A stretch of 39,642 bases of DNA, from the NCBI GenBank assembly GCA_030609325.1, contig JAUWCL010000029.1, positions 1 through 39,642 on the forward strand, in the 5' to 3' direction. Under the pieces are notes generated by a model. That model saw only the letters and a list, made by a program, of their open reading frames with translations, did no database searches and was not told the origin of the DNA. The position numbers and the translations under genes are program-made. Positions 674-39,533 of this stretch are shown here, in pieces (within the stretch, counting starts at the first letter, position 1; every line of letters begins with the position of its first letter). Source of the stretch: Candidatus Krumholzibacteriota bacterium (GTDB taxonomy: Bacteria; Krumholzibacteriota; Krumholzibacteriia; Krumholzibacteriales; Krumholzibacteriaceae).

Positions 674-1264
674 AATTTTACGCCAGTACTAATGGATGGC
701 CCTGAATGCTTTCTATCTCCATTGGTTGCTCGGCGCTCGAAGAAACCGGTTCAATTGGATCTCTTCGAGCTGGTGGCCTGGAATTATTGTTACAAGGTGA
801 TAGTGACCAACAAGCGGATCTCCGCTAAAAACGTTATTGCTTTCCATCATGGGCGCGGATCGCAGGAGGGTCTCATCGGCGAGGTGAAGTCACTTTGTCA
901 GATGGATTACATCCCGACGCGCAGTTGGGCAGGCAATCGGATGTACATGCATGCGGGGATCATGGCCCACAACCTGACCCGAGAGTTTCAGATGCAAACG
1001 AAACCACGTTGCCGCACAACTACTGCCACAAGACCGGCACTCTGGGTCTTCGAGAAGCTTTCAAGCATCAGAAACATTTTGATCCGCCGTGCAGGCCGTC
1101 TTACAAAACCTGGTGGACGGTTGGTCTTAACCATGAGCGGCAATGAGGCCGTCCAGCGAGACTTCAAAGTTATATTGCAAAGCCTGCTGAATGCAGCGTA
1201 TTTTATAGTATTGACTGAGTTTTATGCATCATTGGGGTTTACTGTGAGACCGACCGAGACCTAA
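674..1264 (+). pseudogene. IS1380-family transposase, 3' fragment
   Basis: The frame encodes about 190 residues resembling only the C-terminal third of IS1380-type (DDE group 1) transposases. Seen: 'YKVIVTN', then 'AFHHGRGSQEGLIGEVKS' with the expected catalytic Glu region, 'AGNRMYMHAGIMAHNLTREF', and the C-terminal 'LSSIRN...AGRLTKPGGRLVLTMSGN'. The first ATG is at 692, but an in-frame TGA at 671-673 blocks the frame and no upstream transposase sequence is visible. The N-terminal two thirds, including the first catalytic Asp residues, are missing, so this is an inactive remnant. Its last 26 bases overlap the stop end of the opposing GH57 gene. The tail after about residue 165 (from 'YFIVLTEF') may be read-through beyond the natural end. 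I could not identify terminal inverted repeats. Confidence 0.8.
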
Positions 1265-3344
1265 TAGTCAATGTGAACCTCTCCGCTTCTCCCGGCTCGA
1301 GATCAAGTCTTCTCACCGCCACGACGGCTGAGCCCTGATAGACCCTCTCGAATCCCGAGTCGGAATTCGAGACGGTCTCGATAGGATATCTCCACAGGCC
1401 GGTGCCGGGCGACATCTCGAGGGTCACGGAGAGGTCCATCCACTCGTCTATGATTCTCAATGTCTCCACGTCCTCCTCGACACCTCTCGAGGCGAGGTTC
1501 CTCCCCCCACCGATCTTCCGGCCGGGGATCTCGAAATACCTGTCGGGCGCGTCTCCGGCGAGGAAGGAAAAAACGTTCTCGACGGCGAAAAGACATGAAA
1601 GCCCTTTCCCGCCGGCCGTAACCGTGTAGTCGACGTTCATCGACACACCGCCGCCGTCGAGCGTGATTCTCTTTTCGACCCTTACCGGCACGGGAGAGCC
1701 GTCCGGTGCGACCGAGCCGTCCCTCGCCATAATGACAACGTCATCGCCTTCGGTCTCGATATCATACAGGCCATCGACGAAGTCGCCCAGCTCCGCGTAG
1801 GCGCCCGACGCGAACTCGTCGAGCGTTGTATCGGCGGGCATGAATCTGTCCGAGAGGGAAGCCTTCGGCCAGCGGTCGTAAAGGAGCCTCTTCGCAAGCC
1901 CCTCCTCCTTAGCCGTGGCGAGATTGTGAATGCTGACCGCCTCTCCTCCCCCGGTCTCGTGTTTTTCGAGATCCCTGAGATTCCTGTGATATATCTCCTC
2001 GCGCCGCGTCAGAGTATCGGTAAGGTTGAACCTCGCGCGCATGTCATCGAGCTCTCGCAGGACGCCGCCCTTCGCCTTGAAGAAAGCCTGCATCTTCGGC
2101 GAGGAAAAGATCACCTCCTCCACCCCGTCACCGTCGATATCCGTTCGTTCCAGGGCGGGCCGTGCCATGACCGCCTCCATCTCGAGGACATGTCTGAATA
2201 TCGCGCTGCGCAGATGCGGCAGATAGAGACCGCCGAAGAGACCGTGCCAGTAAGCACAGTTGCACTGCGCCTGGTAGAGATGGCTCCTCGCCTCCGCATC
2301 GACCTTCCCGGATTCATCCAGAAGCGCGCTGGCACGCAGCATCCTCTTGTGCATCCAGTTCGCCTCCTCGTACTTGACGAGGAAGTTACGCCAGAAGCCG
2401 CCCTTCACCACCTCGGCCGCGTCGGGGAAACGCCCGCTGCCTGCGAGGAGTCCCTTCGCGTCCTGGTAGGCCTCCTGCGCACGCAGCGGGAGGGCCCATT
2501 CCATCATCTCGCTGTACGAGGCGGTGGGAAGATACACGATGCCCCTGGGATGAGTCTCATCGATGACCCTCGAGAATGTCGACACCTCGAGCCAGTCGGA
2601 ATTCTCCATCAGGGCGTCGCAGAACCTGCGCAGCCATTCGCGCCTGTAGACAAGGTCATACGTCCCTGTCCAGAGGCCGAACTTCTCGCCGTCGTCGGCC
2701 AGCACGGCGATCTTCCTCTCACCGCCCGGCTCCTCCGAGATCGCTCTGAGATGCACTATCGCCTCTTGCGGATCGTGGAAGGGGGTCAGGTACCGCAGCG
2801 TCTTGTCTATCGGGAATACGTTTATGTACACGCCGTTCTCCTCGGAAAGGAAAAATCCGCGCATCTGCTGCGAGGTGAAGCCGGTGCTCTTGAAGTGGGA
2901 ATCGTCGACGATCACATATTCAAGGTCCGCCTTCGACAGTGTGTCGGGCAGGTGCGGGTCCCAGATCCTCTCGGTCAGCCAGCAGCCGCGCGGTTTCACG
3001 CCGAACGCGCCGTCGACGAAATCCTTCATCATCGCCAGCTGCCCCTGCCTGTCCCTCTCGGGGATGATCGTCAGGATCGGCTCGTAGTAACCGCCCGACA
3101 TGATCTCGACCTGGCCGGCCGAGACCATCGAAGCGACCGCTCCGGTATATTCGGGATGCTTTTCTGCGAACCAGTCCCATAGTATCCCGCTGCAGTGCAG
3201 TGCGAACGGGACGCGCGGATAGTCCTTCATCACCTCTATGAACGGCAGGTAGGCCTTCTTGCAGGCCTCTTCGATGACATGATCGAAATTGCCGACCGGC
3301 TGATGATTGTGGATCCCCAGAATGAATGTCACCTTACCCGGCAT
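1239..3344 (-). CDS. GH57 family alpha-amylase / 4-alpha-glucanotransferase
   Basis: A 701-residue cytoplasmic enzyme (no signal peptide) with the hallmark GH57 regions: HNHQP (residues 12-16), 'EIMSGGYYEP' (80-89), WLTERIW (122-128; Glu125 expected nucleophile) and 'LADDGEKFG' (215-223; an Asp here is the expected acid/base). After the barrel come the helical middle domain and a C-terminal beta domain, the architecture of Thermococcus-type 4-alpha-glucanotransferases and amylases (EC 2.4.1.25 / 3.2.1.1). Substrate is inferred to be glycogen or maltodextrin. The gene is last in the operon, 16 bases after the PTS EIIB gene, which hints at carbon-flux control. The final residues (about RSRSVSQ) are encoded within sequence that overlaps the IS1380 remnant, so the original C-terminus may have been replaced by a few residues. 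The choice between amylase and transferase cannot be made from sequence alone. Confidence 0.9.
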   Translation of the reverse strand: MPGKVTFILGIHNHQPVGNFDHVIEEACKKAYLPFIEVMKDYPRVPFALHCSGILWDWFAEKHPEYTGAVASMVSAGQVEIMSGGYYEPILTIIPERDRQGQLAMMKDFVDGAFGVKPRGCWLTERIWDPHLPDTLSKADLEYVIVDDSHFKSTGFTSQQMRGFFLSEENGVYINVFPIDKTLRYLTPFHDPQEAIVHLRAISEEPGGERKIAVLADDGEKFGLWTGTYDLVYRREWLRRFCDALMENSDWLEVSTFSRVIDETHPRGIVYLPTASYSEMMEWALPLRAQEAYQDAKGLLAGSGRFPDAAEVVKGGFWRNFLVKYEEANWMHKRMLRASALLDESGKVDAEARSHLYQAQCNCAYWHGLFGGLYLPHLRSAIFRHVLEMEAVMARPALERTDIDGDGVEEVIFSSPKMQAFFKAKGGVLRELDDMRARFNLTDTLTRREEIYHRNLRDLEKHETGGGEAVSIHNLATAKEEGLAKRLLYDRWPKASLSDRFMPADTTLDEFASGAYAELGDFVDGLYDIETEGDDVVIMARDGSVAPDGSPVPVRVEKRITLDGGGVSMNVDYTVTAGGKGLSCLFAVENVFSFLAGDAPDRYFEIPGRKIGGGRNLASRGVEEDVETLRIIDEWMDLSVTLEMSPGTGLWRYPIETVSNSDSGFERVYQGSAVVAVRRLDLEPGEAERFTLTIRSRSVSQ

Positions 3345-3360: not shown

Positions 3361-3834
3361 TCAGACCACCTTCGAGTTGATCGTTACTCTCTCGTCGCCC
3401 GGAAGCGCCCTCGCCTCGAGCGTTATCCCCTTCTTCACTATATCGCGCAGGACTCCTCTCTCCCCTTCGTCGACCCAGACGTTCTCGGTGATCTTCTCCC
3501 GGCCCTCACGGAAGTGAAGCCCGCCGACGTTTATCTCTGTCGTCTCCAGCCCCATGTCGAGTATCTCAAGCGCCTCTGCCGGCCCCCTGACGAGCAGGAA
3601 GATCTTCTCGCTGTCGAAGACGCCGCCGACGATCTGCCCGGCCGCCTCGGCGAGGGAAAGGACCGTGGCCTTGAAATCGGGCCCGGCGGCGCTCGCGTAG
3701 AGTTCCTTCTCCCAGTCCTCGGCGTTCACCAGGTCGTCGGCAAGCACTATCCGGTCGGGCTTCAGCCTTCTCCCCCATCCCACCACGACCTGCGCGTGTA
3801 TGAACCTGTCGTCTATACGGAACAGAATCACCAT
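3361..3834 (-). CDS. PTS mannose/sorbose-family EIIB component
   Basis: Starts at the ATG at 3834, which has a good GGAGGGA Shine-Dalgarno and gives the family-typical N-terminus 'MVILFRIDDRFIHAQVVVGW'. A longer frame to 3900 would add 22 atypical residues. His13 in the RIDDR-x-IH-x-Q motif is the expected phosphorylation site. Length is 157 residues, normal for EIIB of the mannose (PTS-Man) family. It would take phosphate from the EIIA encoded just upstream (70-base gap). No EIIC or EIID membrane subunits occur in the window, so sugar transport by this pair is unsupported; a regulatory relay is the more likely job (inference). Confidence 0.9.
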   Translation of the reverse strand: MVILFRIDDRFIHAQVVVGWGRRLKPDRIVLADDLVNAEDWEKELYASAAGPDFKATVLSLAEAAGQIVGGVFDSEKIFLLVRGPAEALEILDMGLETTEINVGGLHFREGREKITENVWVDEGERGVLRDIVKKGITLEARALPGDERVTINSKVV

Positions 3835-3904
3835 CGTTCTTCCCTCCGACCCTTGCTGTACTGTGGAATCTTCCGCCCGGCCGTTAACCGCCGCCGTCAC
3901 CTTG

Positions 3905-4300
3905 TCAGAGCTCTATGACCCTGACGCTTTCCCGGCCGCGGTGGATCAGATGGTCCACGATCTCGTCGAGCCCCATGATCCCCTGCTTCGTGACGAAATC
4001 GAGCAGGATGGGCAGGTTCACCCCGCTGATGACCTTTACGCCCTCGATCCCGCGGGTCGCCCTTACGCACAACGCGCCGCAGGAACCCCCGAAATAATCG
4101 ACGAAGACCACTGTGCCCTTCGCATTATTCCTGTCGAGTATCTCGTGAATCGACCTGACTACCTTCTCGTCTCCCAGGTCGGAGCTCGACAGCGCGTAAC
4201 AGTCGTGGACCTCGCCGACGATCAGGCCGACCGTCCTGAGAAGTTCCTCGCCGAGTTGTCCGTGGGTAACTATTATCCCGGTAATGTCCTTGTCTGTCAT
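3905..4300 (-). CDS. PTS mannose-family EIIA component
   Basis: A 131-residue EIIA-Man fold protein. The N-terminus carries 'GIIVTHGQLGEELL', with His13 as the expected phospho-acceptor. 'VVFVDYFGGSCG' and 'VISGVNLPILLDFV' match the conserved loops around the active site and dimer interface. The start ATG lies six bases from the end of hprK, with AGGAG very close to the start codon. It normally receives phosphate from HPr, whose gene is not in the window, and passes it to EIIB (next gene). Clustering with hprK, as in many non-Firmicute genomes with incomplete PTSs, points to a signalling role. Confidence 0.92.
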   Translation of the reverse strand: MTDKDITGIIVTHGQLGEELLRTVGLIVGEVHDCYALSSSDLGDEKVVRSIHEILDRNNAKGTVVFVDYFGGSCGALCVRATRGIEGVKVISGVNLPILLDFVTKQGIMGLDEIVDHLIHRGRESVRVIEL

Positions 4301-4305
4301 GGCTC

Positions 4306-5274
4306 CTACTCGTGATCGTAGAGAAGATAGCGCCTCGTCTTCTTGTCGCTCTCCATCATGTCGAGAAGCTGCTGGTCGAGGCGCTTGGCGGCGTCGATGC
4401 CGTAGACCTTGAGCATGTGATTGAGCGCGATCGTCTCTGCGATCACAGTGATGTTCTTGCCGGGAAATATCGGGATGACGACCTGGCGCACTTCGATGCC
4501 GAGAATATCGGTGTAGTGCTCGTCGAGCCCGTGGCGGTCCCAGTCCTTCGACGGGTCCCAGTCCTCGAGCTGGACCACGACCTCTACTCTCTTCTGGATC
4601 CTTACCGCCCTGATCCCGAACACGTCCATCACGTTGATGATGCCGATGCCGCGGATCTCCATGTAGTGTTTGAGGTGCTCCCGTCCGCGCCCGAGTATGG
4701 CGTCCCCGTGCCTGACCGTCTCCACGACGTCGTCTGCGACGAGCCTGTGGCCCCTCTCGACGAGGTCGAGGGCGATCTCGCTCTTTCCGATGGCGCTGCG
4801 GCCGGAGAAAAGGAGCCCCACTCCGTAGACGTCGACCAGCGAGCCGTGTATCAGCGTCCGCGGCGCGAAAATCAACTCGAGATACCCGGTCAGTTCGTGG
4901 ATGAACTCGGTCGTCTGCATCGTGGTTCGCAGCAGCGGCACACCGTGCTCGACGGTGAGATCGAGAAGCTTCTTCGGTACGTCGAGGCCCTTTGTGACAA
5001 TGATGCAGGGAAGCGGCTGGGAGAAGAGCCGCGCAACAGCGTCTGCGACCTGTCCCTTGTCAAGCGACTCGAGATAGAGCAGCTCCGTCTCGCCTATGAT
5101 CTGTATACGCTTGTGGAGGAAGTTCTCCATGAACCCCGTCAGCGCGAAAGCCGGCCGGTGTATGTCCTCGCTGGTGATCGGTATCGGACCCCCGAGGTTG
5201 TCCGTCAGGACCTCGAGATCGAACTCTTCGGAATTCTCCTCGAAGAATTCCTTTACCGTATATTCCTGTGGCAC
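4306..5274 (-). CDS. hprK: HPr kinase/phosphorylase
   Basis: A 322-residue protein with both HprK domains: the N-terminal MurF-like domain (1-130) and the C-terminal P-loop kinase domain. Seen: 'IHGSLVDVYGVGLL' (His143 expected catalytic/coordinating), P-loop GRSAIGKS (158-165), 'VADD' (179-182) and the HprK signature MEIRGIGIIN (205-214). Relative to the classic GDSGIGKS loop, Asp becomes Arg and Gly becomes Ala; the Lys-Ser that binds phosphate is intact. The start is GTG at 5274 with GGAGG six bases upstream. It phosphorylates or dephosphorylates a regulatory Ser on HPr in response to ATP/PPi and phosphate. The gene is between hpf and the PTS EIIA gene. Confidence 0.95.
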   Translation of the reverse strand: MPQEYTVKEFFEENSEEFDLEVLTDNLGGPIPITSEDIHRPAFALTGFMENFLHKRIQIIGETELLYLESLDKGQVADAVARLFSQPLPCIIVTKGLDVPKKLLDLTVEHGVPLLRTTMQTTEFIHELTGYLELIFAPRTLIHGSLVDVYGVGLLFSGRSAIGKSEIALDLVERGHRLVADDVVETVRHGDAILGRGREHLKHYMEIRGIGIINVMDVFGIRAVRIQKRVEVVVQLEDWDPSKDWDRHGLDEHYTDILGIEVRQVVIPIFPGKNITVIAETIALNHMLKVYGIDAAKRLDQQLLDMMESDKKTRRYLLYDHE

Positions 5275-5307: not shown

Positions 5308-5856
5308 TCAGTCGAGACTGTTGATGACCCCGTAATGGCCATCGGACCGTTTGTACACGAAGTTCAGTTTACCCGATTCCGCATTATTGAAAAGGAGAAA
5401 ATCCCTCTCCTGGTCCACCATGGATATTATTGCCTCCTCAACGCTGAGGTGCGCTATCTCGTGGGGAATCTGGGCCATTACGTCGATCCCGCCTTCGCTT
5501 CCGATACTCTCCGCTTTGATGATCCTCTCGGCTGAAGTTACCTTGATGCCGTTCTTCCGGGGATGGTGCTGGTTACCAATCTTCTTTCCCTTGAATTTCT
5601 TGATCTGTCGTTCAAGACTCTTGGCCGAGAGGTCTATCGAACCGTACATGTCCTCCGACTCTTCCTTGGCTGTGAAATCGTGCCCGTTGACATGAACGTT
5701 CACCTCGGCAATATGACGGAATTTTTCGACGTCCATGATCACGTGGACGTTGAGAATATGGTCGAAGTATCGCTTGAGCCTGCCGATCCTTTCTTCGATG
5801 TGCTCTATGAGTTCGGGACTGGCTTCGAAATGTCTTGCTGTCGTCGTGATAATCAT
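5308..5856 (-). CDS. hpf: Ribosome hibernation promoting factor, long form
   Basis: Start chosen at the ATG at 5856, preceded by GAGGAGG seven bases upstream; it gives 'MIITTTARHFEASPELIEHI', the normal HPF/YfiA N-terminus. A TTG or ATG a few codons earlier is in frame but would overlap the Shine-Dalgarno. The product is about 182 residues. An N-terminal ribosome-binding domain (1-100) is followed by a linker and the C-terminal dimerisation domain, with 'LSVEEAIISMV', 'DFLLFNNAESGKLNFVYKR' and 'GHYGVI'. Long-form HPF dimerises and forms inactive 100S ribosomes in stationary phase. The rpoN-hpf-hprK/PTS neighbourhood is common in bacteria; here lipA sits between rpoN and hpf. Confidence 0.94.
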   Translation of the reverse strand: MIITTTARHFEASPELIEHIEERIGRLKRYFDHILNVHVIMDVEKFRHIAEVNVHVNGHDFTAKEESEDMYGSIDLSAKSLERQIKKFKGKKIGNQHHPRKNGIKVTSAERIIKAESIGSEGGIDVMAQIPHEIAHLSVEEAIISMVDQERDFLLFNNAESGKLNFVYKRSDGHYGVINSLD

Positions 5857-5873
5857 TACACATCCTCCTCGCA

Positions 5874-6779
5874 TCAACCAACCGGCATCGTCCGGCCATC
5901 TTTGTGACGAACTCCCGTACGGTTCTCCTGGTACGAACTTCTTACCAGGGGCCCCGCTGTCACCTCGAGAAACCCCATTGCGCGTGCCCTGTTCCCGATT
6001 TTCGAGAACTCCTCCGGACTCAGGTACCGGCCGACCGGCGCCTGGTCCAGCCCGGGCCGCAGGTACTGGCCGAGAGCAGCGAAATCCACCCCGGCAGTTC
6101 TGAGGTCCCCGAGCGCTTCGAAGATTTCTTTGGGCGTCTCGCCCAGTCCGAGCATGAAAGATGACTTCGTGAGCACCTCCCTCTTTCGTTTCTTCGCTTC
6201 GGAGAGGAGAAGGAGCGACCTGTCGTAGTCGGCCCCCTTTCTTATCTCCGGATAAAGTCTTCTTACTGTTTCCATGTTGTGTGAGAAGATATCCGGGCCG
6301 GCGTCCAGCACTGTGTCGAGAGCATTCAGGTCGCCGCCAAAATCAGGCACAAGCACCTCTACGACCGGGGCGGGATCGAGGGCGTGAAGCTCCCCGATGA
6401 CCCCGGCGAACCACGAGGCGCCTCCGTCGCGGAGGTCGTCGCGCGTGACGGACGTGACGATCACGTGGCTTAGACCCAACTCGCTCGACGCGTCGGCGAT
6501 CCTCTCCGGCTCTGTGCGGTCGGGCGCTCCGGGCGATCCCTTCGTCACCGAGCAGAATCCGCACCCGCGGGTGCATACGTTGCCGAGCATCATGAAGGTG
6601 ACCTTGCCCTTCGAGTAGCACTCCGCCCTGTTGGGACAAAGGCCTTCCCTGCATATTGTATGGAGATTCCTGCGCCTGACGGCTCCCTCTATCCTCGAAG
6701 ATTCCGTGGCCAGTGGAATCTTTCTCCTCAGCCACGCGGGAAGCCTCTCACTGCGGCGTGTACTCGTGTTGAATGTCAT
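5874..6779 (-). CDS. lipA: Lipoyl synthase
   Basis: A 301-residue radical SAM enzyme that inserts two sulfurs into protein-bound octanoyl chains (EC 2.8.1.8). The auxiliary [4Fe-4S] motif C-x4-C-x5-C is seen at Cys43, Cys48, Cys54, and the radical SAM motif C-x3-C-x2-C at Cys69, Cys73, Cys76. The C-terminal RSSY motif (about 280-283) completes the auxiliary cluster ligands. No lipB or lplA is in the window. The gene lies 32 bases after rpoN and 17 bases before hpf, so it is probably cotranscribed with them. A link to rpoN is not expected from function, so the placement looks like an insertion into the usual rpoN-hpf order. Confidence 0.96.
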   Translation of the reverse strand: MTFNTSTRRSERLPAWLRRKIPLATESSRIEGAVRRRNLHTICREGLCPNRAECYSKGKVTFMMLGNVCTRGCGFCSVTKGSPGAPDRTEPERIADASSELGLSHVIVTSVTRDDLRDGGASWFAGVIGELHALDPAPVVEVLVPDFGGDLNALDTVLDAGPDIFSHNMETVRRLYPEIRKGADYDRSLLLLSEAKKRKREVLTKSSFMLGLGETPKEIFEALGDLRTAGVDFAALGQYLRPGLDQAPVGRYLSPEEFSKIGNRARAMGFLEVTAGPLVRSSYQENRTGVRHKDGRTMPVG

Positions 6780-6811: not shown

Positions 6812-8236
6812 CTAGTACTCTTTCCGGTGCCTCGCCGGGAGGATCCCCAGCTGCTCCCTGTACTTCGCGACGGTGCGCCGCGCTATGATCAGCCCGTCCT
6901 TCCTGAGAAGGTTGGCGATCTTCTGGTCGCTCATCGGCTTTTTCGTATCTTCTTTCGAGATGATCTCCTTGATCCTGAGCTTCGCGCTTTTAGCCGAGAC
7001 CTCCCCGCCCGATTCGGTGCTCAGCGCGCTGCTGAAGAAATACTTCAGCTCGAATACGCCGCGCGGAGTCTGTACGTACTTGTTCGTCGTCACCCTGCTG
7101 ACGGTCGACTCGTGCATACCGATCTTCCCCGCCACCTGCTGAAGCGTCAGCGGCCTGAGGTAGCCTGCGCCCTTCTCGAAAAAATCCATCTGCGCCTCGA
7201 CGATGTTCTCCATCACCTTTATCATCGTCCGCCGGCGCTGCTCGATTGTCTGGATCAGCCACTTGGCGTTCTTGAGGCGCCCCTGGATGAAGTTCCTCGT
7301 CTCATCGCTGATCTCGTGGTTGCTCTGGAGCTCGCTCCTGTACGACTGGCTTATCCGCAGCCTCGGGACGTTGCGGTCGTTGAGAAAGACAACGAACTTG
7401 TCGCCCACGCGCTCGACAATCAGGTCGGGGATGATGTACTTCGGATCCTCTGAGATGATGTCGAGGCCGGGCTTCGGGCTGAGACTCCCGATGACTCCCG
7501 CCTGCGCCTGAACCTCCTTGATCGATATCTTGAGCTTCTTGCTGATGTCGAGATACTTCTTCTGCTTGAACTCCTCAAAATGTTCGGCGACGATCTTCGC
7601 GGCCATGCTGTCCGAGAGGCCCTTCACCTCGAGCTGGATGAGAAGACCTTCCCGCAGGTCTCGCGCGCCGATCCCGGACGGCTCGAAAGTCTGGATGATC
7701 TTCAGCACATCCTCGACCTCCTCGATTGATGCGCTGCAGGTGCGCGAGATATCCTCGAGGGGACATACGAGGTATCCCGAGTCGTCGAGATTGCCGATGA
7801 TGTACTCGCCGATCTCGAGGACCTTCTCGTCCTTGGTGGCGAGCCTGAGCTGGCTCATGAGGAACTCCGAGAAACTCGGCTTGGCGACGGGGACCCTCTC
7901 GAGGAAATCTTCCCTCTCCTCGATCTCCGCCTGCGTACCGCCCATCCCGAAGGCCGTCTCGAAGTAGTCGTCCCAGTTTTCCTGGTCGTCCTTGGCCGCC
8001 TGCTCGTCCTTCTCCACCCCCGCCGCTTCTTCTTCCTCTTCCACCGGCGCTTCGTCCTCGAGATTCTCCTCGATCTCGTCGACTTCCTCGAGAAGCGGGT
8101 TCTGCAGGATCTCCTGGCGGAGTACCTGCTGGAGCTCCTGGGTAGGCATCTGCAGCAGTTTCAGGGCCTGCTGCAGCCGCGGCGTCATCACCAGCCGCTG
8201 CTGCATACCCAGACGCATACCTAGTTTCATTTCCAT
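6812..8236 (-). CDS. rpoN: RNA polymerase sigma-54 factor
   Basis: A 474-residue sigma-54. Region I (1-50) is Gln/Leu-rich: 'QQRLVMTPRLQQALKLLQMP'. Region II (about 50-80) is strongly acidic (EEVDEIEENLEDEAPVEEE). The core-binding domain and DNA-binding helix-turn-helix follow, and the C-terminus carries the RpoN box ARRTVAKYRE (452-461), which recognises the -24 element. It is complete. It needs enhancer-binding ATPases to open promoters; none is in the window. The gene follows lptB with a 16-base gap, as in many diderms (lptC-lptB-rpoN-hpf). A perfect sigma-54 promoter upstream of the operon suggests autoregulation. Confidence 0.97.
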   Translation of the reverse strand: MEMKLGMRLGMQQRLVMTPRLQQALKLLQMPTQELQQVLRQEILQNPLLEEVDEIEENLEDEAPVEEEEEAAGVEKDEQAAKDDQENWDDYFETAFGMGGTQAEIEEREDFLERVPVAKPSFSEFLMSQLRLATKDEKVLEIGEYIIGNLDDSGYLVCPLEDISRTCSASIEEVEDVLKIIQTFEPSGIGARDLREGLLIQLEVKGLSDSMAAKIVAEHFEEFKQKKYLDISKKLKISIKEVQAQAGVIGSLSPKPGLDIISEDPKYIIPDLIVERVGDKFVVFLNDRNVPRLRISQSYRSELQSNHEISDETRNFIQGRLKNAKWLIQTIEQRRRTMIKVMENIVEAQMDFFEKGAGYLRPLTLQQVAGKIGMHESTVSRVTTNKYVQTPRGVFELKYFFSSALSTESGGEVSAKSAKLRIKEIISKEDTKKPMSDQKIANLLRKDGLIIARRTVAKYREQLGILPARHRKEY

Positions 8237-8252
8237 CTATATCCGTCCTTAC

Positions 8253-9005
8253 TTACAGACGAAACGCCTCGCCGAGGTAGATTTCCCTCACCTCGGGGTC
8301 GGAGGCCAGATCATCCGCGGTTCCGGAGCGCTTTATGCTTCCCTCATACATGATATACGCTCTGTCGGTTATTGACAACGTCTCCCGGACATTGTGATCG
8401 GTGATGAGGACGCCGAGTCCCCTCTCGCGGAGTTTCATGACGATCCCCTGCAGGTCTGCCACGGCGATCGGGTCGATTCCGGCAAACGGCTCGTCGAGAA
8501 GCATGAAGGAAGGCTCGGTAACGAGCGAACGGGTCACTTCGACCCTGCGCCTCTCTCCACCGGAGAGCTGGTAGCCGTAGCTCTTGCGCAGGTGCTCGAC
8601 GTTGAGCTCCCTCAGGAGGCTCTCGAGGCGCTCCTCCCTCTCGGCCTTCGAGATCTTCAGCGTTTCGAGGATCGCCTTGAGATTATCCTCGACCGTGAGC
8701 TTGCGGAAAATCGACGCCTCCTGGGGGAGATAGCCTATCCCCTTACGGGCCCTGCGGTACATCGGCAGCCCCGTGATATCATGGCCGTCGAGGTAGACCG
8801 TCCCGCCGTCTGGCTTGACCATGCCGACGATCATGTAGAAGCACGTTGTCTTCCCGGCGCCGTTCGGGCCGAGAAGACCTACAACCTCGCCGCGGCTGAC
8901 GTTTATCGAGACGTCGCCGACGACCCGTCTCTTGCCGTAGGCCTTGACCAGGCCGTCGCAGCCAAGTCCCCTGCCGTTGCTCCTGCTGGCGGAAGAATCA
9001 CTCAT
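8253..9005 (-). CDS. lptB: LPS export ABC transporter ATP-binding protein
   Basis: Start chosen at the ATG at 9005, which overlaps the lptC stop (ATGAGTGA, translational coupling) and gives about 250 residues; a frame extending to 9047 would run far into lptC. All ABC ATPase motifs are present: Walker [11 protein letters not shown]-loop (LPQEASIF), signature LSGGERRR, Walker [13 protein letters not shown] and the switch His in ITDHNVRE. The sequence is LptB-like throughout. It powers extraction of LPS from the inner membrane with LptF/LptG, which are not in this window. Confidence 0.95.
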
Positions 9006-9603
9006 CCCCACTTCCCTTTCCTTCCTTTTCCTTCCTGACTTCCTCATCTATCAGGCCCTCCTCGTCGCGCAGGGAGGCCCTCACGTCGCGTTTTATTTCT
9101 ACATTCTTCAGTTCCGGATATCCCTGGAAACCGTATCCCGTCAGGACGTCGTTCCCCCTGGTGATCTTGACGAAATCTTCCGAGTGTATCTCTCCGAGCT
9201 CGCGGATCATTATGAGGCTCTCCGTCTCGAGGGTGTACCCCTCAGTCGTCGTGACGACGACGTTCCCCAGGGCGGTCAGGTCGTGGGAGACCTGGTTGTA
9301 CTCGCCCTTGTCCGCGGTCAGTACTGAGGTGACCTCGCCGTTCTCGTCGTAGAAGGTAATCTTCGGATTGTCGGTCACAAGCAACTTTCTGAGGTTATAT
9401 ACCCTCGCCACCGGCGCTTCGAGGGTCCACTTCACCCGTCCCGAATCGCTCTCCATAGTGGTGAAGTCGGAGAACTCCTGGTCGGCCATCTCCGTCGTGC
9501 CGAGCGACCGCTGCGGCCTGTCGCCCTGGCCGCACGAGAGCGCCGCCGCGGCCAGCGCCGCGCAGGCAAGGAGTATCGCTGTTTTTTCTCTCGTCATCTT
9601 CAT
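8998..9603 (-). CDS. lptC: LptC family LPS-export periplasmic protein, predicted lipoprotein
   Basis: Start chosen at the ATG at 9603 with GGTGGAGG five bases upstream; a GTG four codons earlier is also possible. The product is about 201 residues. An N-terminal hydrophobic segment ends in a slightly degenerate lipobox (AALSC, Cys24), so anchoring as a lipoprotein is likely, unlike the single transmembrane helix of E. coli LptC. The rest reads as an LptC/OstA-like beta-jellyroll: '[12 protein letters not shown]', '[22 protein letters not shown]', '[20 protein letters not shown]' and '[15 protein letters not shown]'. The C-terminus is very charged (Glu/Lys). No separate lptA gene is adjacent. 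Position directly before lptB supports the call. Confidence 0.88.
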
Positions 9604-9655
9604 CACGGCCTCCACCAGGTCCGCGCTGTATTATACACCCGTGCGGACGGCGCGT

Positions 9656-10621
9656 TCACGCGGTACCATCCATCTCAAGATATCCCGAATTCTCGACTTT
9701 TTCCAGATGTTCCGTACGAATGTGCCACCTGTCATGAAACCAGACCCACTGCTGCGGATAGAGCCTCACGAGCTTCTCTATCGCCGCAGTCAGGTCTTTC
9801 GTGAGAACGGCCTGCCGTTTCTCCTCGGGCAGGTCCTCCTGTGGATGCTCTATCTCGGGCAGTATCGTGATGTGGTGCATCCCGCCGGGCTGCATGTGGA
9901 TCGCCATCGGTACAACCGCCGCCCCGCTCCGCAGGGCGAAGACGGCCGGGCCTAACGGCGTCCAGGCGGGCCTGCCGAAGAAGGGAACCATGATCCCGTC
10001 GCTGTTGATGTTCTGGTCGACCAGCATCCCGAGAATCTCCCCTCTTCTCAGAGCGCGGTACCCGGCGACCGCCGTGTTCCCGCGGTGGAACGATTCCACT
10101 CCGTGCCTGTACCTCATCTCGATGAGCATCCTGTTGAGCGTCCCGTTGCTGAGCCTTCTCGTTATCACGCTGACCCTGTACCCCTTCCCGGAGAGGTAGG
10201 CGCCGAGCACCTCCCAGCATCCGATATGGCCGGTGATCGCCAGCACTCCCCTTCCGCGGGCCAGGGCACGCCCGAGGTTCTCCTCGCCCGAGACAAGACA
10301 CGACTCGAGCACCTGCTGCTTCGTCTGGCGGGTCAGCCTGAGGGCATCGAGGGAATTCTTCCCGATTGACCTGAAAGCCCCCCTGGCTATCGCCTTCACG
10401 ACAACCGCCGGCGTGCCGGGGAAAGCGCGTGCGATGTTCTCGTGGGCGCGCACCCTATTCTTCCGATAGCAACTGTACGAAACCATTCCGAAAAATGTAA
10501 ACAGTGAGAGACCAGTGCGTCGCGGCAGGGTAACGGCCAGAAAGACGAGCGTTTTGACGAGAACTGTCTCGCCGAGCCGTCGGGCCGTTTTTTTTATTCT
10601 TTTCCGCAGGTCACTGGACAA
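9656..10621 (-). CDS. LpxL/HtrB-family lipid A acyltransferase
   Basis: A 321-residue membrane-associated acyltransferase with an N-terminal hydrophobic helix (about 23-45), the family HX4E catalytic motif (His132 to Glu137 in GHIGCWE), 'LVDQN' and a C-terminal 'QQWVWFHDRW'. It transfers a secondary acyl chain to KDO-lipid A or a related glycolipid. Start is TTG at 10621 with AGGAGG seven bases upstream. It is the first gene after the predicted sigma-54 promoter and leads into lptC. LpxL, LpxM and other HtrB-like acyltransferases cannot be told apart here. Confidence 0.88.
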   Translation of the reverse strand: MSSDLRKRIKKTARRLGETVLVKTLVFLAVTLPRRTGLSLFTFFGMVSYSCYRKNRVRAHENIARAFPGTPAVVVKAIARGAFRSIGKNSLDALRLTRQTKQQVLESCLVSGEENLGRALARGRGVLAITGHIGCWEVLGAYLSGKGYRVSVITRRLSNGTLNRMLIEMRYRHGVESFHRGNTAVAGYRALRRGEILGMLVDQNINSDGIMVPFFGRPAWTPLGPAVFALRSGAAVVPMAIHMQPGGMHHITILPEIEHPQEDLPEEKRQAVLTKDLTAAIEKLVRLYPQQWVWFHDRWHIRTEHLEKVENSGYLEMDGTA

Positions 10622-10737
10622 CCCTTTTCCTCCTGTGCCCTACCGCCACGAAACGCGTCATCTCACGTAACATGTTGAAAAACAAGGCAAATAACTTACC
10701 GCTTTTCAAGGTATAACACAGGTCTGGAGATGATTAA

Positions 10738-10753
10738 AGCAATTAATGTGCCA
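10738..10753 (-). promoter_or_regulatory. Sigma-54 (-24/-12) promoter upstream of the lpxL-lptC-lptB-rpoN operon
   Basis: On the minus strand the sequence TGGCACATTAATTGCT matches the published sigma-54 consensus TGGCAC-R-N4-TTGCW at every defined position, with the required spacing. It lies in the 187-base gap between the stop of the large membrane protein gene (10809) and the TTG start of the acyltransferase gene (10621). It points towards that gene, with a predicted transcript start near 10727 and a ~106-base leader. No clear sigma-70 promoter was found in the gap. The sigma factor that would use it is encoded four genes downstream in the same operon. Confidence 0.75.
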
Positions 10754-10808: not shown

Positions 10809-13800
10809 TCAGTCTTTCTTTATCCACTTGACCGCGTCGGCAATAACGTAGAGCACCGGTGACTCGTCGGAGAGCTCGATGATCGCCTCTCCCGCCTCGA
10901 ACCAGTACCTGCCGAGCATGTTCCACCCGTCCTCGCACCGGTCGGGAAGGAGCACGATCTCGCTCGAGCCGTCCGAGTAATAGACGGTGTAATGGTGCTC
11001 GATCCGGTCGAGGCCATGCTTTTTTCTGCTCTCCGGATTGGACCCTCGAAAACGATCATAGATATAGCAGTAAACATCGTACGAACCATCTTCTGGTATC
11101 CGGGCCCGCCAGACCGCCTTCGATCCGCCGACGCCGGCCCTGATACAGCTGGCGGACCTGACATATGTACCGAAAAATCCTTCATGGAGCGCCGTGCTCC
11201 ACCTGGAAGGCGGCTCCTTCATGACCTCTAGGATGTCGATGAACTCTCGATCACCATCCGATCCGGGCAGCAGTCTTCGCAGGAACCCTCCTCCGTCCCC
11301 GTCAATCGTCCTAAATCTGGAATCCTGATCGTCTGCGACGATGCTTCCGTCTTCGAAATCGGACATATCGATTCCCCCGGGATCCCTGCGCCCTGCACCG
11401 CACGAGCCGCGAACCTCTATTCCGGGACCCCAGGTTATCCGAGACGGCACGTTCCTCGATATCATCGTATTTATCCATACCGTTATCGGCTCGTAATCAA
11501 GTGTAAACTCGACACGCCGCGATTCTCCGGGTTCAAGAGCCTCAATGGCAACAACCGGATTCTTGACCTTCCGTTTCAGGGTCTTCCTTACCACCTGCGT
11601 ATATTTGAGGGCGGCTGTGATCACGAGCACCCCCCGGAGACTCTCGCGGTTCCACACATCGAAACTCAGCCTGAAGCGCTCCCTGTCACCGTCGACAAAC
11701 GAACAACAATCGAAACCCGAATATACATACCCCGGAATATCGACGGGATTCTCCAGATCGATAACTACCGACTCGAGCCTGAACCCGAACCGTTCAGCGA
11801 AGGATTCGAGCAATACGTCTTCCTCGATATTCCTGAACCTGTTCGACTCGACGAGATCCCGCAGAAATATTTCAAGAGTTCCATTCGGCGACGCGGCGTC
11901 GATGAGATAATAATGATGGCTCGCCCAGTTCCCGATCATGTTGCCGGCCCACCCGTAGTCGTGAGGCTTCATGACCGCTTCGAGGAGTTCTCCGCGCATG
12001 ATCGTCAGGCTTGCGCGCTCTCCGTCGGTGAAGCCGTCACTCGTCCAGCTTCTACGGCGCTCCCGGCAAAGGACGTTTTCTCCGGTCAGATGCTCGAAAA
12101 GCAGGCCGAGATGAGGATATTGCGACGTGGCGATACCGGTCGAATGTCTGAAATACATCGGGTAGATATTGTGTTTGAAAGAACACACGTTGGACAGGAA
12201 CTCCCCCAGAGACCAGAAAACCAAAAAAAAGTTATTCTCTTTGATCGTTCCCCGTCTCCTGCCTTCATTTCTTTTATTATCACCGATCCATACCGGGAGA
12301 GAGGAGATTCCTTTCGTCATGCCTCTCTCGTGAACGAGGATTAACTCGGGCTGGATTAAACCGAATCCGGTGTCCCGCAGGGGTCGATTGAAGGGCCAGA
12401 ACGAAGCCGGGACCTCCAGCAGGGTCAGTCTTCTGAAAGGATATGACAGGCCCAGGGAATATTCGAACTTGTCCCTGCGATAAGAGATCATGCCAGGCAG
12501 CGTATCCGAGACACATTCCATCAGGCCGATCAGATCCTCGCTGCATGGGGTGGAACAGAGGGAATACTCCAGTGAATCAATCTCTATCGTCCTCGTCCTG
12601 AAATCCCCGATAGCCAGTGTTATACCCGTCAGCGGATACTCCGGTTCGAACAGAAAGTCCCCGTCTTCGCCGAAGGTCGTCTTTCCCTGCGAAACGGCAT
12701 CGAGGCCCTTGCGGGGCCTGACACGCATCCTGAATCTCGAGAAAACCCTGTGATCGTCTTCCGGATTTCGCGGATCGTAGGGAAGTCCGGGCACGGGGTA
12801 CCACATGGCGGCGGGAACGAGAAGCATGTAATCGTAGCGCAGAGGCGCCAGATCCCTTGGCACCCTGAAAAGATCCATCCCCGAAAAACGTACTCGTATA
12901 CCTGTAATAATATCATTGAACGAGAGGTTATCGGAGCGTATTCCTTCCGGGATATCGCTGAACATCGCCCTGCAGTCCACGATCCCCTCGTACCGGATTT
13001 CGATTGTGTCCCGTCCGCTGGGTTTCAATGGCTGCGGGGGCACCGCCTCGAGGATGTGAACGTCGCGCTTGAATTCGATGCTTCGAGTTCCCCTCATGAT
13101 ATTGGTCACCCGCAGACCGGGGTTGAGAGTCAGGACATACCTGTCAACAGGCGACCCCGTCCTGTTTTCGAGGACCATGCGGACGATGCAGTCGATCGCA
13201 CGGCCTTCCTGATCGACCGAGATGTCGTAATCCAGAGGTACGATCCTGGGAACGGGGCGGAAGGGGGCGCTTGCCTCCCTTATATTTTTCCTGAGTTCTT
13301 CTCCTGTCAAAAAGTAATTGACATACTGGATCCCTGCATAGATGGAGATCGATAGAAGAACAGCAGTGACCACCGATACTGCCGCAGGCGTCAAACGTCT
13401 GCCAGGGGGTCGACGCGAGGTGATCGCGGTCACACCGGCCAGTGCCAGCCCCGCCGAGAGATAGAAAAGGCGCTGCCGGGCAATGAGCTCCGGGAACGAA
13501 AAGCCGGTTATCCTCGAAAAGAGGAGCGGCAGCCGGAACGCGGTGATGTCGAATAGATGAAAGTACCTGTCAGCCGTGGAGACCGAAAGCAGTACCGTCG
13601 CCGTGATAATCAGCAGGGAAAACATCTGATTTCGCACGATTCTTGAGATGAGCATCGATAAGCCCGCTATGAAAAAGAAGGCCGGTATACAGATTATCAG
13701 GGGGTACAGCAGATAACCCTCCTTGAAGATCATCATCCCGGGGCTGTACAGGTTGATTCCGAGAGTGAACAGGAGAACAAAAACGGTCATGATAATGAAG

Positions 13801-14162
13801 CAGATCATCTGCCCGGCCAGTTTCCCGATTGCGTACTCGACATTCGACCAGGGTCGGACCCTCGCCGCATCGAGGGTATCGAGTTTCCATTCCCTCCATC
13901 CGGAATTTGTCGCGACCGCCGCGAGAACGACGCCGGAATAGACTGAATACAGGATGGTCACTATCCACGGTGTCGATTCGGGGCTGATCTGCCAGCCGAT
14001 TATCAATGCAACGGCAAATCTCGAATGAAAGATTCTCGTAAGCAGAAACACGCCGAGGAATACAAGGGGCAGCAGGAAGGCCGTGCGGAAGGTCCACCCG
14101 CGCATGATGACTTTCGCCTCATAGCGCGCCATGGACCAGATCCTGAAGATCGAATCAGACAT
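10809..14162 (-). CDS. Large membrane protein: ABC-2-type permease domain + M1-peptidase-like ectodomain + golvesin-like C-terminal domain
   Basis: About 1117 residues from the ATG at 14162 (a TTG three codons earlier is an alternative). Residues 1-285 hold seven predicted membrane helices in an ABC-2 permease pattern ('SMARYEAKVIMRGWTFRTAFLL' at the N-terminus). The Arg-rich loop before helix 7 places the long C-terminal part outside the cytoplasm. About 290-900 resembles the ectodomain of permease/M1-aminopeptidase fusion proteins ('PLDYDISVDQEGRAIDCIVRMVLENRTG...' then a beta-rich and a helical part). The zinc motif HExxH is not found, so catalysis is doubtful. The last ~122 residues look like a golvesin-type C-terminal domain, ending 'YVIADAVKW'. 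No ABC ATPase other than lptB is nearby. It is 36 bases downstream of kdsD, occupying the place where kdsC often lies. Function unknown. Confidence 0.75.
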   Translation of the reverse strand: MSDSIFRIWSMARYEAKVIMRGWTFRTAFLLPLVFLGVFLLTRIFHSRFAVALIIGWQISPESTPWIVTILYSVYSGVVLAAVATNSGWREWKLDTLDAARVRPWSNVEYAIGKLAGQMICFIIMTVFVLLFTLGINLYSPGMMIFKEGYLLYPLIICIPAFFFIAGLSMLISRIVRNQMFSLLIITATVLLSVSTADRYFHLFDITAFRLPLLFSRITGFSFPELIARQRLFYLSAGLALAGVTAITSRRPPGRRLTPAAVSVVTAVLLSISIYAGIQYVNYFLTGEELRKNIREASAPFRPVPRIVPLDYDISVDQEGRAIDCIVRMVLENRTGSPVDRYVLTLNPGLRVTNIMRGTRSIEFKRDVHILEAVPPQPLKPSGRDTIEIRYEGIVDCRAMFSDIPEGIRSDNLSFNDIITGIRVRFSGMDLFRVPRDLAPLRYDYMLLVPAAMWYPVPGLPYDPRNPEDDHRVFSRFRMRVRPRKGLDAVSQGKTTFGEDGDFLFEPEYPLTGITLAIGDFRTRTIEIDSLEYSLCSTPCSEDLIGLMECVSDTLPGMISYRRDKFEYSLGLSYPFRRLTLLEVPASFWPFNRPLRDTGFGLIQPELILVHERGMTKGISSLPVWIGDNKRNEGRRRGTIKENNFFLVFWSLGEFLSNVCSFKHNIYPMYFRHSTGIATSQYPHLGLLFEHLTGENVLCRERRRSWTSDGFTDGERASLTIMRGELLEAVMKPHDYGWAGNMIGNWASHHYYLIDAASPNGTLEIFLRDLVESNRFRNIEEDVLLESFAERFGFRLESVVIDLENPVDIPGYVYSGFDCCSFVDGDRERFRLSFDVWNRESLRGVLVITAALKYTQVVRKTLKRKVKNPVVAIEALEPGESRRVEFTLDYEPITVWINTMISRNVPSRITWGPGIEVRGSCGAGRRDPGGIDMSDFEDGSIVADDQDSRFRTIDGDGGGFLRRLLPGSDGDREFIDILEVMKEPPSRWSTALHEGFFGTYVRSASCIRAGVGGSKAVWRARIPEDGSYDVYCYIYDRFRGSNPESRKKHGLDRIEHHYTVYYSDGSSEIVLLPDRCEDGWNMLGRYWFEAGEAIIELSDESPVLYVIADAVKWIKKD

Positions 14163-14198
14163 GTGTCCCAATGTTCGGGGCGGGGTCTCTATGATCCC

Positions 14199-38513: not shown

Positions 38514-39245
38514 TCAGTATTTTATCTCCATCAGGTAAAGGGCTCCAGGCGAAAGGGTAGGCCCTGCGGCGGAGCGGTCCCCCGAGGCAAGTAGATCGGC
38601 GATAGATACGTTCCCCCCCGTGCCGGCCCTCAGAACGGTTCCGGCGATAGAGCGCATCATATTGTAGAGAAACCTGTCGGCGGTGATCGACAGTGTCACG
38701 AGAGGCCTGTTCTCGATGATCTCGGCCCGCAAGATGATACAGATCGTAGTCTTGACGCTCGAGCCGGACGCAGCGAATGCTGCGAAATCGTGCTCCCCGC
38801 GAAGGGTCCACAATTGCTCCCTCATCGCGTCTATTCCATCCGCGTCGAGGCCCTTCGGGACCTCGTGGTAATAATTCCTCCAGAGGGCGCTCGGGCGGTC
38901 GATGAAGATGTAATGATATCTCCTGCTGCGCGCGTCGTACCTCGCATTGAACGACAGCGGGACCTCCTCTACCGAGCGTACCACTACGTCGGGAGGAAGC
39001 TTGCTGCGCAGCGCCTTCATCATGACGCCGGTAGACATATCGGTCTCGAGCGCGGCGCTGGCCACCTGGCCCGCGGCATGAACGCCCGTATCGGTCCTGC
39101 CGGCGCCGACGATCTTCACGTCACCGGCGGCGATTTCGCCTAGCGCCCTGTAGAGCTTCCCCTGGACCGTCCGCCGACCGGGCTGGACCTGCCATCCGGA
39201 GAACCCGGAACCGTCGTATTCGATTGTAAGCTTGAAGTTTCTCAT
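38514..39245 (-). CDS. truA: tRNA pseudouridine(38-40) synthase
   Basis: Start chosen at the ATG at 39245 ('[19 protein letters not shown]'), giving 243 residues. A longer frame to 39461 would run through the promoter with a non-family N-terminus. Catalytic Asp52 lies in '[11 protein letters not shown]'. '[16 protein letters not shown]', '[13 protein letters not shown]' and '[17 protein letters not shown]' are the conserved TruA blocks. No Shine-Dalgarno is visible; the mRNA is predicted to be leaderless. Confidence 0.95.
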
Positions 39246-39253
39246 ACAACGGC

Positions 39254-39282
39254 AATATAGCAGAATGAGCCGTCCCGTCCAA
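39254..39282 (-). promoter_or_regulatory. Sigma-70 promoter of truA (predicted leaderless)
   Basis: On the minus strand TTGGAC (39277-39282), a 17-base spacer and TATATT (39254-39259). The last base of the -10 is only eight bases from the ATG at 39245, so the transcript would start about two bases before the start codon. This agrees with the absence of a ribosome binding site. Confidence 0.65.
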
Positions 39283-39533
39283 TATCGCGGTATCCCGGCA
39301 GGGTCATAGTCTCTCCGGAGATCCCGACCTGTCCGGAATCGGCCCGGAAAATCGCACATCCGGAGAAACGCTGACACAGAAGAGGAAACGACGCGGGACA
39401 TCAGGGCAACATGCTGCCACACAACAATTTGCAGTGGTACGCCCCTTGCTGTGTACCTCAATTAATACTGATGAGCCGTGATCGATACGTCAAGGATACG
39501 GCCGGCCCAATATCTAAAGCACTGAGCTCTTAA

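Follow-up and report, generated by a model that had tools for sequence, protein, structure and literature searches.

A sigma-54-type site overlapping a sigma-70-type promoter ahead of the LPS-export/rpoN operon in Krumholzibacteriota and further phyla

Does sigma-54 control the operon in which its own gene lies and, if it does, would it drive that operon or hold it back? The question is raised by the window analysed here, a stretch of 39,642 nucleotides from a Candidatus Krumholzibacteriota bacterium whose genome measures 2.63 Mb in 56 contigs. On the minus strand of the window, at 10753-10738, stands the sigma-54-type site TGGCACATTAATTGCT, with its GG and GC 10 nt apart, in a gap of 187 nt between an ORF ending at 10809 and an ORF starting at 10621 with TTG. 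A sequence-only reading had presented it as a perfect sigma-54 promoter from which RpoN would drive its own synthesis, and it was right about the motif, the strand, the coordinates, the GG-N10-GC spacing and the intergenic place. The -24 element TGGCAC (10748-10753) and the -12 element TTGCT (10738-10742), both defined by sequence and conservation, would place the start of an Esigma54 transcript 12 nt past the C of the -12 element, at 10727, as judged from the geometry. That all defined positions agree holds for the consensus TGGCAC-N5-TTGCW; against the longer published form TGGCACG-N4-TTGCW, as it appears in an extract of PMC2725144, the site departs at position 7, which is A and not G. A is the commonest base at this position in the relatives as well, and bound sigma-54 sites of E. 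coli can also carry it there (PMC4591121).

The site points into a run of minus-strand genes for which the order acyltransferase-lptC-lptB-rpoN-lipA-hpf-hprK-PTS-GH57 had been claimed, an order borne out by Pfam and NCBIfam. The first gene (9656-10621, start codon TTG), preceded by a leader of about 80-105 nt, encodes an LpxL-like lipid A acyltransferase (PF03279) and is followed by lptC (8998-9615; TIGR04409, PF06835), lptB (8253-9047; TIGR04406, 366.8 bits) and rpoN, the sigma-54 gene (6812-8236; Pfam and NCBIfam). Further down come lipA for lipoyl synthase (5874-6779; TIGR00510, above cut-off), hpf for the long form of the ribosome hibernation factor (5308-5877; TIGR00741, PF02482 with PF16321), hprK (4306-5274; TIGR00679), a PTS EIIA of the mannose family (3905-4300; PF03610), a PTS EIIB of the mannose/sorbose family (3361-3900; TIGR00854, under the curated cut-off) and a GH57 alpha-amylase/4-alpha-glucanotransferase (1239-3344; Pfam). 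As listed, the start of lptB overlaps lptC (8998-9047) and there is no separate lptA between the two, an order that differs from that of E. coli. Junctions from the acyltransferase gene to the GH57 gene are short or overlapping, terminator-like sites within the run are in no excess over shuffled sequences, and an Rfam search of the window returned zero families. The RpoN protein encoded here is intact: all three of its domains (AID, core-binding, DNA-binding) are present, and the RpoN box ARRTVAKYRE stands at residue 452. Sigma-54 is evidently in use in this organism, since its genome encodes about 21 strong enhancer-binding-protein domains (PF00158); no enhancer-binding-protein gene was found on the contig of the window. 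On the other side of the gap lies a minus-strand gene with a golvesin C-terminal domain (10809-14171; Pfam), which is specific to the genus of the window among those examined, kdsD occupying its place in most relatives.

How much weight can the match itself bear? TGGCACATTAATTGCT is the top sigma-54 match of a window-wide PWM, and the exact pattern occurs four times in the genome versus three times for a reversed-pattern control, so that the match is not significant on count alone. Of the four genomic matches, one lies inside a urocanase-like coding frame, one before an SPFH-type gene and one before a lipoprotein gene. The exact site TGGCACCCACCTTGCA (locus L002; G000:C27:20508-20523, minus strand) stands 98 nt ahead of an SPFH/virion-core-like gene. 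At a second conserved sigma-54-type site, TTGGCACAnnnGTTGCT (locus L004; G000:C47:55630-55645, minus strand), the gene that follows after about 70 nt encodes a lipoprotein of about 282 aa (MRKVFxVLLALSL...CSDD), also seen at L148, L141, L142 and L143 in several genera of the family; lipoprotein sites of this type have no overlapping TTGAC. In the window, the second-best PWM match is TGGTACGCCCCTTGCT (39435-39450, plus strand), which has one mismatch, points off the contig end and sits within a listed minus-strand ORF (38514-39461).

Conservation is a better guide than rarity. RpoN was found in 78 of the 80 genomes of the phylum, and we compared 73 loci around rpoN together with nine further stretches. 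The sequence-only reading had staked itself beforehand on the motif recurring in close relatives, and it does: the site precedes orthologous genes in 51 genomes, belonging to 35 genera and 7 families of Krumholzibacteriota. Across the 35 genera, its thirteen positions hold 1.25-1.94 bits, most of them near 1.9, against a mean of 0.07 for the flanks; TGGCA and TGCT show little or no variation (1.75-1.94 bits), the sixth base is C or T, and the GG-N10-GC spacing is constant in every aligned site. Outside the high-GC family f5, G047, with none seen ahead of lptC, is the one genome to lack the site among those in which the region could be inspected. Within f5, the region could be inspected at 27 loci, and at 11 of them a site was not recognisable. 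Both f5 and the phylum of genome G213 have lost the T at -15 (nTGCT), and E. coli sigma-54 is known to bind nTGC sites, those of glmY, hycA and hyfA included (PMC4591121). A chance match, which the near-equal genomic counts of pattern and control would by themselves allow, is refuted by this recurrence, in the same orthologous position, in 51 genomes of the phylum and in three other phyla, and we assign it a practically negligible probability. It is because of this conservation at an orthologous place, and not because the match is rare, that we judge the site to be real.

The neighbours that the site keeps say something about what it may be kept for. In almost all genomes that possess it, the site heads a unit containing rpoN, and where the acyltransferase gene is missing from this place it is retained directly before lptC. 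The exception is genus g24 (G036 and G042; loci L167 and L168), in which kdsA-kdsD-site-acyltransferase form one locus and lptC-lptB-rpoN form another one without the site (kdsA and kdsD being named here from their translated sequences). Since the g24 site has remained on the LPS side of this split, apart from rpoN, autoregulation of rpoN would not be the sole conserved role. Taken together, these gene orders would support a site kept for LPS and also a site kept for rpoN. As a conserved sigma-54-type site heads the rpoN operon, control of this operon by RpoN can be inferred on good grounds.

Such control need not mean activation, for comparison with the relatives brings out a second promoter fused to the first one. 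Their common arrangement is TGGCAY-N5-nTGCTTGAC, followed by N17 and (TGn)TAnnnt, that is, a sigma-54-type site running into the -35 and extended -10 elements of a sigma-70-type promoter. Counting one genome per genus and leaving out the divergent family f5 (25 genera), TTGAC follows directly after TGC in 22 genera, and a spacer of exactly 17 nt separates the -35 hexamer from TA in 23, whereas 20000 shuffles gave a mean of 1.8 and a maximum of 8. Averaged over genera, a -10 PWM scores positive at spacer 17 only (+2.1; other spacers -1.6 to -8.4), and the TG of the extended -10 appears at the same offset in 15 of the 25. Each genome has essentially one copy of the composite TGGCAYN5TTGCTTGAC. 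Family f5 retains TTGAC, with a doubtful -10.

In the genus of the window the sigma-54 half is perfect and the sigma-70 half weak, reading TTTAAT/TTGAAT-N17-TATACC/TATATC with an extended -10. By comparison with the relatives, the window carries on its minus strand a degraded -35-like hexamer TTTAAT (10733-10738), which shares its first T with the -12 element, an extended -10 element TGT (10716-10718) and, 17 nt past the -35 hexamer, a -10-like hexamer TATACC (10710-10715). A sigma-70 start would be expected from this geometry about 7 nt beyond the -10, at 10703. A simple consensus scan for sigma-70 promoters finds no match in the gap because the -35 of the window is degraded, and the sigma-70 half becomes visible through comparison only. 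The idea that TTGAC simply belongs to the local sigma-54 consensus was considered and rejected: other sigma-54-type sites do not have it, and the 17-nt distance to the -10 is preserved. With the composite being single-copy besides, the sigma-70 part is no general feature of the sigma-54 sites of these bacteria. Geometrically, the -35 starts at the base after TTGC, so the footprints of the two promoters overlap, and their holoenzymes should exclude each other.

A block fused to a -35 at a fixed distance, with the first T of TTGC free in some families, invites the thought that TGGCAY-N5-nTGCT only resembles a -24/-12 pair and serves some unrelated regulator as its operator or extends the housekeeping promoter upstream. 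We find this very improbable, given that the sigma-54 consensus is matched wherever it is fixed, the spacing is invariant, the block is not palindromic, the same block occurs without TTGAC at other sigma-54-type sites of these genomes, and the operon nearly always includes rpoN itself.

The composite is not a peculiarity of one phylum. We had entertained that it might be, and abandoned the idea when two matches outside the phylum proved orthologous and further phyla carried the composite in 7/7 and 6/8 genomes. Among 209 genomes, there are five composite matches outside the phylum versus five for the control, and two of these five matches precede acyltransferase-lptC-lptB-rpoN. In the phylum of genome G177, each of the seven genomes has exactly one copy, with TTGACA-N17 followed by TATGCT, TATTGT, TATTCT or TATGGT in six and by GTATCT in one. 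In that of G213, six of the eight genomes have one copy, which in all six reads TTGACA-N17-TAACAT or TTGACA-N17-TAAAAT and stands before the acyltransferase gene and lptC. Genome G285 has TTGACT-N17-TAGATT, and no composite was found in the rest of its phylum. Overall, TA lies at 17 nt in six of the seven lineages of these three other phyla, and their composites are followed by the acyltransferase gene and, as far as the locus reaches, by lptC, lptB and rpoN. Both halves are conserved at fixed geometry in several phyla. In single genomes of four further lineages, to be taken as leads only (G147, G151, G209 and G135; loci L197, L205, L214 and L228), a sigma-54-type site without TTGAC stands 19-155 nt before lptC-(lptA)-lptB-rpoN. 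Judged from these sequences, RpoN control of the lpt-rpoN operon may extend beyond the lineages with the composite.

What would two overlapping promoters do at such an operon? In our analysis, the probable explanation is an overlapping sigma-54/sigma-70 promoter through which RpoN exerts negative feedback on the operon of the lpxL-like gene, lptC, lptB and rpoN, with a double control similar to that of glmY in E. coli. The sigma-70 promoter would most likely provide a steady supply of transcript for LPS export and rpoN. When no enhancer-binding protein is active, Esigma54 would park on its site as a closed complex and block sigma-70, and we propose that more RpoN would in this way mean less RpoN synthesis and less LPS export. 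Once a suitable enhancer-binding protein becomes active, the same bound polymerase could start its own transcript near 10727. Binding of the two holoenzymes, mutual exclusion and the sign of the feedback are all three steps that we infer. The notion that RpoN drives its own synthesis has fared half well: a conserved sigma-54-type site does head the LPS-export/rpoN operon, and a sigma-70-type promoter overlaps it, so that the operon would not be purely activator-dependent. Negative feedback, with unactivated Esigma54 blocking sigma-70, appears to us at least as likely as RpoN driving its own synthesis.

Binding sites for an activator had been predicted to lie within 10809 to about 11000, and none is visible there, nor is there any upstream element common to the relatives beyond coding words of kdsD. 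This region belongs to the upstream gene of the window, which is replaced by kdsD in most relatives; when as much as 260 nt ahead of the site was searched in the relatives for shared words or dyads, only kdsD coding words were recovered. In genus g2 (L078, L080, L081 and L103), the tetramer TTCC is repeated with a 10-bp period ahead of the sigma-54 site, at about -61, -51, -41, -31, -21 and -11 counted from it, an array that is possibly a set of regulator binding sites on one face of the DNA.

The operon could still be a purely activator-dependent one, positively driven by RpoN and an enhancer-binding protein, with the TTGAC and TATAAT-like elements giving at most a weak basal start. This fits the perfect sigma-54 half and decayed sigma-70 half in the genus of the window, the sites without TTGAC before the lpt-rpoN operons of the four other lineages (G147, G151, G209 and G135), the presence of rpoN within predicted sigma-54 regulons of several classes, as an extract of PMC12316311 has it, and a genome with about 21 enhancer-binding proteins. 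We nevertheless regard it as rather unlikely: in no fewer than three phyla TTGAC has been preserved together with an extended -10 at a spacer of exactly 17 nt, which is too much for an idle basal start, a common upstream activator site was not found, and the contig is without an enhancer-binding-protein gene. At the opposite extreme, Esigma54 might bind and never be activated, the site being a sigma-54 operator and all transcription coming from sigma-70. Such a pure autorepressor would agree with the failure to find a conserved upstream activator site, with the fixed overlap with the -35 and with the strict GC at -12, which in E. coli characterises sigma-54 sites that act repressively (PMC4551910). 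But activator sites vary between lineages and can escape detection, and a pure operator would leave unexplained why the genus of the window combines a poor sigma-70 half with a perfect sigma-54 half; we therefore think it improbable. Between these two extremes, negative feedback with an optional activated start is the reading that we retain.

The elements of this reading have precedents. At E. coli glmY, binding of sigma-54 to its own promoter represses the sigma-70 promoter that overlaps it, and the sigma-54 start is switched on by an activator, as recounted in PMC6075780 citing Reichenbach 2009 and Goepel 2011. The two systems share overlapping promoters that read the same gene and serve the supply of the cell envelope, with sigma-54 repressing sigma-70 at glmY while the activator is off. 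They differ in that the glmY promoters overlap perfectly and have one marked start, whereas here the -35 comes after the -12 box and the predicted starts are about 24 nt apart. Also, glmY has activator sites for QseF and here none are seen upstream, and its product is a small RNA whereas the target here is an LPS-export operon containing rpoN. Competition of this kind has been measured in vitro at four overlapping E. coli sites, where purified sigma-54 reduced sigma-70 initiation by 10-60%; all sigma-54-repressed sites of that study have C at -12 (PMC4551910). The class I/II sites described there (argT, chaC, mdfA and patA) resemble ours in having a sigma-54 site inside a sigma-70 footprint, with competition between them; they belong to scattered genes of one species, unlike the single composite kept at one operon over several phyla.

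The genomic setting is also familiar. A sigma-54-type site before a unit that includes rpoN likens our locus to the rpoN autoregulation reported elsewhere in the extract of PMC12316311, where the cases imply sigma-54-dependent transcription of rpoN; that extract describes no overlapping sigma-70 promoter, and the paper does not mention Krumholzibacteriota. The neighbourhood kdsCD-lptABC-rpoN-hpf-PTS is conserved in diderm bacteria and led to the proposal of sigma-54 as a controller of the bacterial exterior (PMC3162934). We find the same rpoN neighbourhood and arrive at the same theme, yet that work rests on gene association, whereas here the promoter of the operon carries a conserved composite. 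The gene order also differs, the window having an LpxL-like gene, lipA and hprK further down and no lptA to separate lptC from lptB. Already known, then, are the proximity of rpoN to lpt, kds, hpf and PTS genes, rpoN in sigma-54 regulons, and overlapping sigma-54/sigma-70 promoters in E. coli. In the open-access literature we found nothing on sigma-54 in Krumholzibacteriota and no report of such a composite at an LPS-export/rpoN operon or across phyla; within that literature, a composite promoter at the LPS-export/rpoN operon, kept over phyla, would be the new element.

It is possible, and we advance it tentatively, that the fixed-geometry composite dates back to an ancestor shared by three or more phyla and has served ever since as a feedback control on LPS export and on sigma-54 itself, and that sigma-54 acts here first as a competitor and repressor of housekeeping transcription at this outer-membrane assembly operon. 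If this is true, it would be a deeply conserved instance of sigma-54 occlusion, of which few cases are documented (PMC4551910). The composite offers a concrete and testable link, in which the level of RpoN would set the capacity for LPS export and its own synthesis via one contested site. Such a self-limiting loop, if true, would explain why rpoN adjoins the lpt genes in diderm bacteria.
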